Shown: positions 7,590 through 59,681 of the stretch, piece after piece
Layout of the letters: each line of letters begins with the position of its first letter
Numbering within the stretch: the stretch's first letter is position 1
Assembly: GCF_005863245.1 (NCBI RefSeq)
Contig: NZ_VBUT01000007.1
Span: 62,001 to 126,000, forward strand
Origin: Nocardia cyriacigeorgica
GTDB lineage: Bacteria > Actinomycetota > Actinomycetes > Mycobacteriales > Mycobacteriaceae
Direction of reading: 5' to 3'
DNA length: 64,000 bases
Notes under the pieces: generated by a model
What the model was told of the DNA's origin: nothing
What the model saw: the letters and a program-made list of their open reading frames with translations, nothing else
The model's database searches: none
Position numbers and translations under genes: made by a program

Positions 7590-7624
7590 CTCACAGCTCA
7601 CCAAGGCGCGCTGAGCGCTGTGAG
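7590..7624. promoter_or_regulatory. Inverted repeat in the narG leader
   Basis: CTCACAGCTCA (7590-7600) faces TGAGCGCTGTGAG (7612-7624). The arms are complementary except for two extra bases, with an 11-nt spacer. It is 77 nt before the narG start and has no T-tract, so an operator or leader hairpin is likelier than a terminator. Confidence 0.45.
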
Positions 7625-41639: not shown

Positions 41640-42141
41640 AGCAATGTCTCACATCCGGTACCGCCGGTAACACCCACGGTGTGACGAACGGGGCCTCCGA
41701 TGGCCCCGACTGTCGCCGATATCACCCATTCGCCACGCCCGATGAATTGCCTTGTCGCGCACTACCGATCGCGGGTCTACGCACCGAAAACGAACTAATG
41801 GCCTGGCGATTTTCGCGCCGGATTTCCGGGCGGAGCACAATATCACGCTACAATCACCACGGACAACGAAAATTTCGCGCCCGATCGAGTTACCCGATCA
41901 TCCCCCGACACAGCTGTCGGCCCGGCGCGCAAGACGATGTCCACGGAAAATGTGCGCGCACCAGATCCGCGTCACCGATGCGCCGCGCCGATGTCTCCCA
42001 GGCAGCCCCCTCTCCGGCGGGTACCGCTGACATCCGGCAGCGACCGGTGAGTATCACAGGCGGATACGTGGTCGTCGCGGACCGGCCGGTCCGCCCCACG
42101 CCTCGTGCGCGCGTGACGCGATAACGAGGAAGGCACGAACC
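41640..42141. other. 502-bp region upstream of the DEAD-box helicase gene
   Basis: No convincing gene: short open frames here have poor codon use and no start signals. The middle (41790-41900) is unusually AT-rich and has a TACAAT (41849-41854) that could be a -10, which would leave a leader of about 285 nt. An 18-bp palindrome lies at 42077-42094. Confidence 0.5.
42077..42094. promoter_or_regulatory. 18-bp perfect palindrome in the helicase leader
   Basis: GCGGACCGGCCGGTCCGC; as RNA it folds to a 7-bp stem with a GGCC loop, 47 nt before the presumed start codon. It may be an operator or a leader hairpin. Confidence 0.4.
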
Positions 42142-43944
42142 CTGAGCAAGATCACAGTCGAACAGGAACCGGGACTGGCGGACACCCTGCTGACGGCCGA
42201 ACTGGACGAAACCCATACCGCCCCGACTTTCACCGAATTGGGGGTGCGCCCCGAAATCGTGCGCGCGCTCGGCGAGATGGGCATCGAACGCACTTTCGCC
42301 ATCCAGGAACTCACCCTGCCGCTGGCGCTGGCCGGCGAAGACCTCATCGGCCAGGCCCGCACCGGCATGGGCAAGACCTTCGGATTCGGTGTTCCGCTGC
42401 TGCATCGCATCGCCACCGCCGAATCGGGCACCACCCCGCTGGACGGAACGCCGCGGGCGCTGGTCATCGTGCCCACCCGCGAACTCTGCATCCAGGTCAC
42501 CAAGGACCTGGAAAACGCGGGCAAATACCTGACCAATCACCAGGGACCGCTGAAGGTGGTCTCGATTTACGGTGGCCGCCCGTACGAAGCGCAGATCGAG
42601 GCATTGCGCCATGGTGTCGACGTCGTCGTCGGCACCCCCGGCCGGCTGCTCGACCTGGCCAATCAGCAGCATCTGATTCTCGGCAAGGTCGGCGTGCTCG
42701 TGCTCGATGAGGCCGACGAAATGCTCGATCTGGGCTTCCTGCCCGATATCGAACGCATTTTGGGCATGGTCCCGGATAAACGGCAGACGATGCTGTTCTC
42801 GGCCACCATGCCGGGCCCGATCATCACCCTGGCCCGCACATTCCTCACCCGCCCGACCCATATCCGGGCCGAGGAGCCGCACGATTCCGCGGTGCACGAT
42901 CGCACCGCCCAGTTCGTCTACCGGGCGCACGCGCTCGACAAGAGCGAATTGGTCGCCCGCGTGCTGCAGGCCGAGAGCCGCGGCGCCACCATGATCTTCA
43001 CCCGCACCAAGCGCACCGCGCAGAAGGTGGCCGACGATCTGGCCGAACGCGGTTTCGCGGTCGGCGCGGTACACGGTGACCTCGGCCAGATCGCGCGCGA
43101 GAAGGCGCTGACGAAGTTCCGCAAGGGCACCATCGACGTGCTGGTCGCCACCGATGTGGCCGCCCGCGGCATCGATATCGACGACGTCACCCACGTCATC
43201 AACTATCAGTGCCCCGAGGACGAGAAGACCTACGTGCACCGCATCGGCCGTACCGGCCGCGCCGGCCGCACCGGCGTCGCGGTGACGTTGATCGACTGGG
43301 ACGAACTCAACCGCTGGGCCGGCATCGACAAGGCCCTCGGCCTCGGCATCCCCGAGCCGGTCGAAACGTATTCGCGTTCACCGCATCTGTTCTCGGATCT
43401 GGGCATCCCGGAAGGTGTCACCGGCACCATCCGCAAGCCCAAGCCGGAACGCGACGAGGACGCCGAGGTCGTCGAGCGGCCCGAGCGCACCCCGCGCAAA
43501 CGCAATCGCAGGCGCACCCGTGGCGGCAAGCCGATCGACGGCGAGGCCACCACGAGCACCGGCGACGCCGGCGAGCAGGGCGAGGCGGCGGCCGGTTCGG
43601 CTCCTGCCGAGGACGCTGCCGGTGACGACGGCGAACGTCCGGCGCGGCGCAGGCGTCGTCGGCGCAAGTCCACGGCCGAGGACGGCGCCGCCACCGGCAC
43701 CGCCGAAGCCACCGGCGAGCCCAGCGACACCGCCGAGGCGACCAGCACGGCCGACGTGAACGGCGCTGCTGAGGCACGCACCGCCGAGGCGACAGCCGCC
43801 GAGACCACCGACACCGAGGCCGGCGGCGAGCAGCCCGCGCGTCGCAGGCGTCGCCGCCGCAAGCCGGCCGCCGAATCCGCGGAAGCCTCCGCCGATGCGG
43901 CCACGCCGGTCGAGTCGAACAGCACCGCAGGCGTCTCCGCCTGA
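42142..43944 (+). CDS. DEAD-box RNA helicase (RhlE/CsdA type) with probable CTG start
   Basis: 600 residues if read from CTG 42142, which has GAGGAAGG 9 nt upstream. No ATG, GTG or TTG occurs in frame between the RBS and TTG 42238, and starting at that TTG would remove the Phe of the Q motif (FTELGVRPEIV...FAIQ). Helicase motifs: ARTGMGKT, PTRELC, GTPGRLLD, DEADE, SAT, TDVAARGIDID, HRIGRTGRAGR. From about 430 on, a long acidic/basic tail contains two ARRRRRRRK-type blocks in Ala/Glu/Thr-rich sequence, probably RNA-binding. Position equals Rv3211. Confidence 0.93.
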   Translation: MSKITVEQEPGLADTLLTAELDETHTAPTFTELGVRPEIVRALGEMGIERTFAIQELTLPLALAGEDLIGQARTGMGKTFGFGVPLLHRIATAESGTTPLDGTPRALVIVPTRELCIQVTKDLENAGKYLTNHQGPLKVVSIYGGRPYEAQIEALRHGVDVVVGTPGRLLDLANQQHLILGKVGVLVLDEADEMLDLGFLPDIERILGMVPDKRQTMLFSATMPGPIITLARTFLTRPTHIRAEEPHDSAVHDRTAQFVYRAHALDKSELVARVLQAESRGATMIFTRTKRTAQKVADDLAERGFAVGAVHGDLGQIAREKALTKFRKGTIDVLVATDVAARGIDIDDVTHVINYQCPEDEKTYVHRIGRTGRAGRTGVAVTLIDWDELNRWAGIDKALGLGIPEPVETYSRSPHLFSDLGIPEGVTGTIRKPKPERDEDAEVVERPERTPRKRNRRRTRGGKPIDGEATTSTGDAGEQGEAAAGSAPAEDAAGDDGERPARRRRRRRKSTAEDGAATGTAEATGEPSDTAEATSTADVNGAAEARTAEATAAETTDTEAGGEQPARRRRRRRKPAAESAEASADAATPVESNSTAGVSA

Positions 43945-57396: not shown

Positions 57397-58683
57397 GTGA
57401 ATTTCTGGCCAGCGCCCCATGTCGACGCCCCCGTGCACGCGACCGTGACCCTGCCCGGATCGAAATCGATCACCAACAGAGCATTGATCCTGGCCGCCCT
57501 CGCCGAGGGGCCGTCGACGATCACCGGTGCGCTGCGCAGCCGCGACACCAACCTGATGATCGACGCACTGCGGGCCCTCGGCGTCCGCATCGACGGCGAC
57601 GCCGAAACCCTCACCGTCACGCCGGGCGAGCTGCGTGGCGGTGCCGTCGACTGCGGGCTGGCGGGCACGGTGATGCGGTTCCTGCCGCCGCTGGCCACCC
57701 TCGCCACCGGTGCGGTGGCCTTCGACGGGGACGCGCAGGCCAGGGTCCGGCCGCTGCGCACCATCCTGGACGCGCTGCGCGGGCTCGGCGCGCGGATCGA
57801 TGGCGACGCGCTGCCGTTCACCGTGCACGGCAGCGGATCGCTGCGCGGCGGCGCGGTCACCATCGACGCGTCGGGCTCCTCGCAGTTCGTTTCCGGCCTG
57901 CTGTTGTCGGCCGCGCGCTTCGAGGAGGGCATCACCGTCCATCACGACGGCAAGGCGCTGCCGTCGATGCCGCATATCGAGATGACGGTGGAGATGCTGC
58001 GCCGCGCCGACGTCGAGGTGGAGGCTCCCGCCGACAGTCGCAAGGCGCAGACCTGGACGGTGGCGCCGGGCGCTATCGCCGCCGTGGACTGGGATGTCGA
58101 ACCGGACCTGTCGAACGCGACGCCGTTCCTGGCCGCTGCGGCGGTCACCGGCGGCAGCGTCAGCATTCCGCACTGGCCGCGGCTGACCACCCAGCCCGGC
58201 GACGTCATCCGCGAGATCCTGGTGCGGATGGGCGCCGAGGCGCGCATCTTCGATGGTGTGCTGACCGTCAACGGGCCGGACCGGCTCGCGGGCATCGATA
58301 TCGACCTGCACGATGTCGGTGAGCTCACCCCCACCGTCGCCGCGCTGGCCGCCCTCGCCGATTCGCCGTCCTATCTGCGCGGCATCGCGCATCTGCGGGG
58401 GCACGAGACCGACCGGCTGGCCGCGCTGTCCACCGAGATCAACCGGCTCGGCGGCAATGTCACCGAAACCGAGGACGGGCTCGAGATCGTCCCCGCGCCG
58501 CTCACCGGCGGGCAGTGGCATTCCTACGCCGACCACCGGATGGCCACCGCGGGCGCCATTCTCGGTCTCACCGTGCCGGGGATCGAGATCGAAGACATCG
58601 GAACCACCGCGAAAACCCTGCCGAACTTCGTGGCGCTGTGGGAGCGGATGCTCGATCCCGCCGATCAGGGAGCGGTGCGCTGA
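57397..58683 (+). CDS. aroA: 3-phosphoshikimate 1-carboxyvinyltransferase (EPSP synthase)
   Basis: 428 residues. [20 protein letters not shown] is the class I PEP-binding start; [43 protein letters not shown] and [12 protein letters not shown] follow as in the family. Sixth step of the shikimate pathway: joins PEP to shikimate-3-phosphate. GTG start. It overlaps the next gene by four bases. Confidence 0.97.
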
Positions 58684-59681
58684 GCCGGCGCGGCCGCTCC
58701 CTCGCCGGCTACGACGAATCCGATGTGCGGGTGCGTCCCGGCAAGAGCTCGCGTCCGCGCACCAAGACCCGCCCGCAGCACAACGATGCCGAAGCCGCCA
58801 TGGTGGTGTCGGTCGACCGTGGCCGCTGGGGTTGTGTGCTCGACGGCGATCCGGACCGTCTGATCGTCGCCATGCGGGCGCGCGAGCTCGGCCGCACGCC
58901 GATCGTCGTCGGCGATCAGGTCGACGTCGTCGGGGACCTGTCCGGTAAGCCCGACACCCTGGCCAGGATCGTGCGCGTCGCCGAGCGGCGAACGGTGTTG
59001 CGCCGCACCGCCGATGACACCGACCCCTTCGAACGGGTGGTGGTCGGCAATGCCGAACGCCTGTTCATCGTCGTCGCGCTGGCCGATCCGCCACCACGCA
59101 CCGGTTTCGTGGAACGTGCCATGGTCGCCGCGTATGCCGGTGGCCTGCAACCGATTCTGTGCCTGACCAAACACGATCTGGCCGCCGACTCCGAATTCGC
59201 CGCCCTCTTCGACGATCTCGAGCTCACCATCGTCTACGGCGGCATCGACGATCCCATCGAGCCGGTGCTCGAGCTGCTCACCGGCCACCTCACCGCCTTC
59301 ATCGGCCATTCCGGTGTCGGCAAATCCACCCTCGTCAACCGGCTGGTCCCCGATGCCGACCGTGCCGTCGGCGAGGTCTCCGGCGTCGGCAAAGGCAAAC
59401 ACACCTCCACCCAATCGGTCGCGCTGCCGCTACCGGGCGGCGGCTGGGTGATCGACACCCCCGGCGTGCGCTCCTTCGGCCTGGCTCACATCACCCCCGA
59501 CGACGTCATCGCCGCGTTCACCGACCTCGCCGACGCGATCGAAGACTGCCCGCGCGGCTGCACCCACCTGGGCCCACCCGCCGATCCGGAGTGCGCACTG
59601 GACCAACTGCCCGGCAAGGAACGCCGCGTGGCGGCGATTCGTCAGCTGCTGACGGCGTTGAATTCCAACGATCACTGGTAG
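58680..59681 (+). CDS. rsgA: Ribosome small-subunit GTPase RsgA with probable CTG start
   Basis: 333 residues. OB-fold N-terminal part, then circularly permuted GTPase: TKHDL (G4), GHSGVGKST (G1), GKGKHTST (G2), DTPGVRSFG (G3), and a zinc site with [11 protein letters not shown] and PEC. Assists 30S maturation. Homologs begin right at SRR...YDESDVR, and the only codon fitting there is CTG 58680, overlapping the aroA stop as CTGA with GGGAG 7 nt upstream. The first ATG (58801) would delete a conserved basic segment. Confidence 0.95.

Follow-up and report, generated by a model that had tools for sequence, protein, structure and literature searches.

Among the described cases that come closest to the arrangement reported here is infC, the gene for IF3, which starts at AUU or AUC and whose product represses non-canonical starts, so that the gene regulates itself through its own start codon (PMC5472188). 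A second is the actinobacterial sigR, whose GTC start was found in 32 of 34 Streptomyces, is likewise repressed by IF3, and on replacement by canonical codons leads to over-production of the protein (PMC5472188). In E. coli, extra IF3 has further been reported to lower re-initiation (PMC2268962). A third comparison is offered by coupled operons, in which the stop codon of one gene and the start codon of the next overlap as ATGA or GTGA. With respect to CTG, the codon accounts for 0.024% of bacterial starts, and CUG is reported to give 0.86% of the protein output of AUG (PMC11497404, citing its ref. 22); at such rarity, and at less than 1% of the efficiency of AUG, the near-fixation of a CTG start in a ribosome-assembly gene needs a reason.

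Here we describe such a start in rsgA, which codes for a small-subunit biogenesis GTPase, in Nocardia cyriacigeorgica and its relatives. Like infC, rsgA has a conserved start outside the ATG/GTG/TTG set and its product acts on the 30S subunit; unlike infC, the codon is CTG and overlaps the stop codon of an upstream gene, and the link to IF3 is one that we infer. The likeness to sigR lies in a conserved actinobacterial non-canonical start that annotation had missed, but sigR codes for a sigma factor, uses GTC rather than CTG, and is described in PMC5472188 from Streptomyces only; a term search of the main text of that paper returned neither “rsga” nor “ctg”. The four-base stop-start overlap is shared with the ATGA and GTGA junctions, but in these A and G interchange between species, whereas the C at rsgA is nearly fixed. 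In a search of open-licence papers no conserved CTG start for rsgA or for the helicase considered below was described among the matches listed. Non-canonical starts and stop-start overlaps are themselves known kinds of feature.

The aroA-rsgA junction

The window, i.e. the whole stretch of DNA analyzed, spans 64,000 nucleotides (contig C7:62001-126000) of the 6.52 Mb host genome, G000. Its features at the junction are the following:

57397..58683, + strand: aroA (EPSP synthase), the gene upstream of rsgA; over cut-off for TIGR01356 and PF00275; putative start at the most upstream GTG of its open frame
58668..58672, + strand: Shine-Dalgarno-like GGGAG, ending 7 bases 5' of the CTG
58680..58682, + strand: inferred CTG start codon of rsgA; CTG in 134 of 137 loci, one parsimony change across 116 loci
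58681-58683, + strand: TGA stop of aroA, overlapping the rsgA start as CTGA (58680-58683)
58680..59681, + strand: rsgA, small-subunit biogenesis GTPase; 333 codons from the CTG, plus stop
58710..58730, + strand: codons for YDESDVR, just 3' of the proposed start; synonymous change with a nearly invariant protein
58800..58802, + strand: downstream ATG, rejected as the start; its use would cost 40 residues

Searches with curated family models identify both genes: the aroA product scores 384.7 bits against TIGR01356 (cut-off 287.25), and the translation of the window from the CTG at 58680, which is open for 333 codons, scores 134.9 bits against TIGR00157 (cut-off 100) and 146.5 against PF03193 (cut-off 30), falling under the cut-offs of NF008931 (135.9 versus 360) and NF008932 (100.4 versus 483). 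By eye, the motif order is permuted, with G4 preceding G1 (LTKHDL, then GHSGVGKST), and a C-terminal Cys/His zinc motif is present, its spacing not identical to that of the motif printed in PMC9032327. The proposal in the initial annotation of a CTG start of rsgA overlapping the aroA stop as CTGA agrees with these coordinates and is strongly supported by the conservation presented below, and the GGGAG that it placed before the CTG does lie at a proper distance, with a gap of 7 bases.

Conservation of the start codon across relatives

We examined the corresponding site in 137 close loci from Nocardia, Rhodococcus, Prescottella, Skermania and their kin, leaving out L002, whose match is a second, distant GTPase, as well as four additional matches to the pattern, in L001, L026, L048 and L072, that were spurious. 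The stop-start overlap of the form NTGA, with rsgA in frame, is present in all 137, and the start site reads CTG in 134 and GTG in three, with no instance of ATG or TTG; upon removal of identical sequences 116 loci remain, of which 113 have CTG and three GTG. The GTG loci belong to N. takedensis (L069), N. aurea (L092) and N. bovistercoris (L095). Rhodococcus erythropolis NBRC 15567 (L133) carries CTG, from which its RsgA would begin (M)SPRQY. Two irregular loci were noted in passing: rsgA is split into two adjoining matches in one genome (G072:C1:2832339-2833312), perhaps reflecting a frameshift or an assembly error, and L164 (G104) carries one TAA inside the rsgA match.

Beyond this set we relied on the order- and class-level loci among the matches listed, which sample the genomes matched rather than cover them in full. 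At the level of family and order, 184 loci were located, 173 with the NTGA overlap and 11 without; those with the overlap comprise CTG in 161 (two of these as CTGATG), GTG in six, ATG in four and TTG in two. Five further family or order loci read by eye have TTG, ATG, GTG, TTG and ATG, respectively. Across the class, 21 of the 26 loci read could be located: eight have GTG, five CTG (one as CTGATG), four ATG, and four lack the overlap. Where the sequence is CTGATG (L184, L186 and L375) the start is probably the ATG. The codon is thus nearly always CTG in the window's own branch and mixed farther out, and because the site is nearly always NTG across this wide range it behaves as a start codon.

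The codons just downstream evolve as coding sequence. In the 134 CTG loci the residues of YDESDVR are nearly invariant despite synonymous change, with E encoded by GAA in 86 and GAG in 48, D by GAT in 83 and GAC in 51, and V by GTC in 99 and GTG in 31. Upstream, a Shine-Dalgarno-like motif (GGAG, AGGAG, AGGAGG, GGAGG or GAGG) ends 7 bases 5' of the start in 73 of 116 loci, and positions -11 to -8 show fewer changes than those surrounding them; in 25 of the 116 none of the motifs tried occurs within 18 bases of the start.

CTG starts elsewhere: a DEAD-box helicase and the parallel with infC

The initial annotation took two CTG starts in the window to suggest regular use of CTG initiation by this organism, and proposed a survey of other genes for a CTG preceded by a ribosome-binding site and followed by a conserved N-terminus. 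For this we aligned the orthologues of 251 genes from 400-kb stretches in four Nocardia genomes and applied a blind filter combining a conserved NTG column, a Shine-Dalgarno motif and a step in conservation. Eight CTG-only genes were returned. By eye the CTG looks N-terminal in rsgA and in a helicase gene at 42142, looks internal in five, and is less clear in one (C7:193557-194783, three genomes), where it is probably also internal. The filter recovered a canonical column for no more than 45 genes and gave neither type of column for 198, so it can miss cases; within these 251 genes, a survey far from exhaustive, there was no third convincing case. Judging from the sequences, CTG starts are rare, not regular, in the N. 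cyriacigeorgica genome. A first survey, based on the conservation boundary, had proved too noisy, giving 23 genes with a CTG-only column, many of them by eye internal or in shadow frames, with rsgA absent from the list.

The features of the helicase gene are:

42126..42133, + strand: Shine-Dalgarno-like GAGGAAGG
42142..43944, + strand: DEAD-box RNA helicase beginning CTG AGC AAG ATC; PF00270 and PF00271; conserved CTG

Members of the DEAD-box helicase family have a role in ribosome assembly. This one scores 157.4 bits against PF00270 and 116.6 against PF00271, and the 25 NCBIfam models listed for it all stay below their cut-offs. Its start is CTG in all 30 Nocardia loci; the next codon is AGC in 29 of them and AGT in the other. 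In five of the 30 an in-frame stop lies within 14 codons upstream with no ATG, GTG or TTG between, and in 14 such a codon does occur within 14 codons upstream of the CTG. Among 27 further loci of the family, 21 were located (L306, L311, L314, L322, L324 and L327 were left unread), and 19 of these have CTG and two do not. A CTG start at 42142 is thus strongly supported by sequence conservation. We take it to be the second of the two CTG starts, each followed by AGC, that the initial annotation counted in the window with no position given. A further CTGAGC occurs at 7611 (7611-7620, + strand). Preceded by a weak Shine-Dalgarno-like AAGG, it heads a 1274-codon molybdopterin oxidoreductase frame that had no orthologue among the genes surveyed, and is followed three codons on by a GTG at 7620 that is the likelier start.

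The infC gene itself shows a comparable constancy. It begins ATC AGC in all 16 loci from the genus, that of G000 lying around C2:652109-652606 (L355), and the 24 loci located among 26 (L348-L373) comprise 23 with ATC and one with ATT.

Near-fixation of the C

The C of the CTG is the third base of the last codon of aroA, and A, G or T in its place would still give a start. Parsimony on a codon tree of rsgA for the 116 loci assigns one change to this position, compared with 12-28 for the third positions of the seven aroA codons before it, these counts being approximate since the tree derives from rsgA itself and was midpoint-rooted. Within the last aroA codon the middle base changed 25 times and the first base seven times, and the residue is accordingly variable (R, H, S, F, N, P or L). 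Positions -24 to -1 show from 4 to 34 changes per site. The constancy of the T, G and A after the C follows from aligning the loci on TGA. When the wider order is added (152 loci), the C position shows nine changes versus 25 to 43.

The initial annotation regarded this junction as the CTG counterpart of the ATGA and GTGA couplings. The geometry is indeed the same, but this description overlooks that A and G swap at other junctions and the C at rsgA is nearly fixed. Within 400 kb of G000, 25 NTGA overlaps precede a gene covered by the survey, N being A in 12, G in eight, C in four and T in one. Nineteen of the A/G junctions could be compared with an orthologue in one or more of three relatives, and at seven of these A and G were exchanged; the rsgA junction has C in all four Nocardia genomes. 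The three remaining C junctions are not convincing CTG starts: two are CTGATG, and at the third (L198 11190-11296) an in-frame ATG follows after 96 bases. At this third junction the upstream gene, which by eye we take to be WhiB-like, ends in CTGAGC, and the frame is open into the downstream gene; this is probably a chance CTGA.

The C might be held by history and GC bias only, the CTG being a real start whose weakness brings no benefit. The region is GC-rich and C is a common third base, and across the class GTG (8) and ATG (4) together exceed CTG (5) among the loci listed. The neighboring third bases of aroA in the same loci, however, have 12-28 changes versus one for the C, and a single C-to-T transition would yield TTG, which is seen in none of the 137 loci. 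Moreover, the CTG of the helicase, which no overlapping stop could hold in place, is still the sole codon in the genus sample, equally as fixed as that of rsgA. We therefore consider this explanation unlikely.

We find it more improbable still that the C is retained as part of an RNA-level signal, be it a structure or a protein-binding site, unrelated to start strength. A short predicted stem does span the CTGAGC, and the starts of rsgA, the helicase and infC in this genome read CTGAGC, CTGAGC and ATCAGC, which could be taken as a shared element. Yet the covariation term of the stem is only 0.12 kcal/mol, its pairs break in some of the 12 sequences, and the bases near the C change freely (25 changes at -1 and 21 at +5).

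Position of the start

The foregoing presumes that translation begins at the CTG, which alternative in-frame codons might call into question. In this genome GTG codons lie 14 and 55 codons upstream of the CTG (58638 and 58515), both in the open frame, and gene callers confined to ATG, GTG and TTG would pick among them; were either the start, the CTG would be an internal leucine codon. The statement in the initial annotation that the conserved N-terminus is reached only from the CTG is hence too strong for this genome, considering these GTGs and those within the DVRV stretch. The upstream GTGs, however, are not conserved: only 24 of the 113 CTG loci have any ATG, GTG or TTG within 15 codons upstream of the CTG or between it and the D of YDESDVR. 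Twenty-seven of the 113 lack any such codon in frame from the upstream stop all the way to this D, and 15 CTG loci lack one before codon +10. Eighteen of these 27 have the stop within 12 codons of the CTG (e.g. TGA GGG AGC GGC CCA CTG), and nine of these also lack the other near-cognate codons considered between the stop and the CTG. The protein is also less conserved upstream than downstream of the CTG (0.33 versus 0.60 identical columns in four genomes), and the site itself is GTG, ATG or TTG in some lineages. Together these observations leave an upstream start with scarcely any credibility.

A downstream start, with the preceding segment untranslated, can be dismissed with like firmness: the two V codons of DVRV, both GTG in this genome, and the ATG at 58800 (58800-58802, rather than the 58801 given in the initial annotation) are all in frame here, but the V codons are GTG in only 31 and 54 of 134 loci, YDESD ahead of them is conserved as protein through synonymous change, and tight binding of RsgA to the 30S subunit is reported to require its residues 1-20 (PMC9032327), so that a start at 58800 should be damaging. 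On the sequence evidence, then, rsgA near certainly starts at the CTG at 58680.

A weak start proposed to be under selection

We propose that the CTG is a weak start kept by selection to limit a 30S-acting GTPase, and consider this account as a whole fairly probable. Under this proposal, initiator Met-tRNA would start rsgA at the CTG at 58680, on ribosomes that either bind at the GGGAG or arrive from aroA, having just terminated at its overlapping TGA. Among the four NTG starts CTG is the weakest, so that most such passes would fail and little RsgA would be made, its yield amounting to a small fraction of the rate of AroA synthesis. The CTG would act as a throttle at which ribosomes ending aroA re-start poorly, and the C would be kept because ATG, GTG or TTG in its place would overproduce the GTPase. 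The fixation of the C, taken with the literature on weak starts, makes such a throttle the simplest account, and we would thus regard the weakness of the CTG itself as selected at rsgA. Initiation in the cell, the low yield, the coupling to aroA and the harm of over-expression are steps that we infer. Knockouts of rsgA are reported to grow slowly and to accumulate 17S rRNA (PMC9032327).

A reporter study in Mycobacterium smegmatis bears on the strength of the codon. With a consensus Shine-Dalgarno sequence CTG was not enriched, at 0.03% of reads, and the same source remarks that mycobacteria have few CTG starts (PMC4633059). CTG may therefore be almost inert in this near relative, which would imply that an active CTG at rsgA needs coupling or a different stringency of initiation, or else that the yield is truly tiny.

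Since CTG is discriminated against, the yield of RsgA might in addition track the stringency of initiation, as set by IF3 and the state of the 30S subunit, in the manner of infC; we advance this with less confidence. The appeal of this extension, whose basis is two or three genes, is that the CTG genes code for a 30S assembly GTPase and an RNA helicase and that infC, too, has a discriminated start. Carried further, it would suggest that in the Nocardia-Rhodococcus group a small and old set of genes with discriminated starts (CTG in rsgA and the helicase, ATC in infC) forms a codon-level homeostat of 30S biogenesis: under a shortage of IF3, or on accumulation of immature 30S subunits with loose start selection, these starts would fire more often and RsgA and the helicase would rise. 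We regard this as a doubtful, though conceivable, generalization.

Implications

The three Nocardia species with GTG at the rsgA start constitute a natural experiment on RsgA dosage, and the CTG of rsgA provides a direct test case for whether weak starts are selected as regulators. A conserved CTG also represents a class of start that gene callers limited to ATG, GTG and TTG must misplace, and a similar approach may expose more actinobacterial genes under start-codon discrimination.
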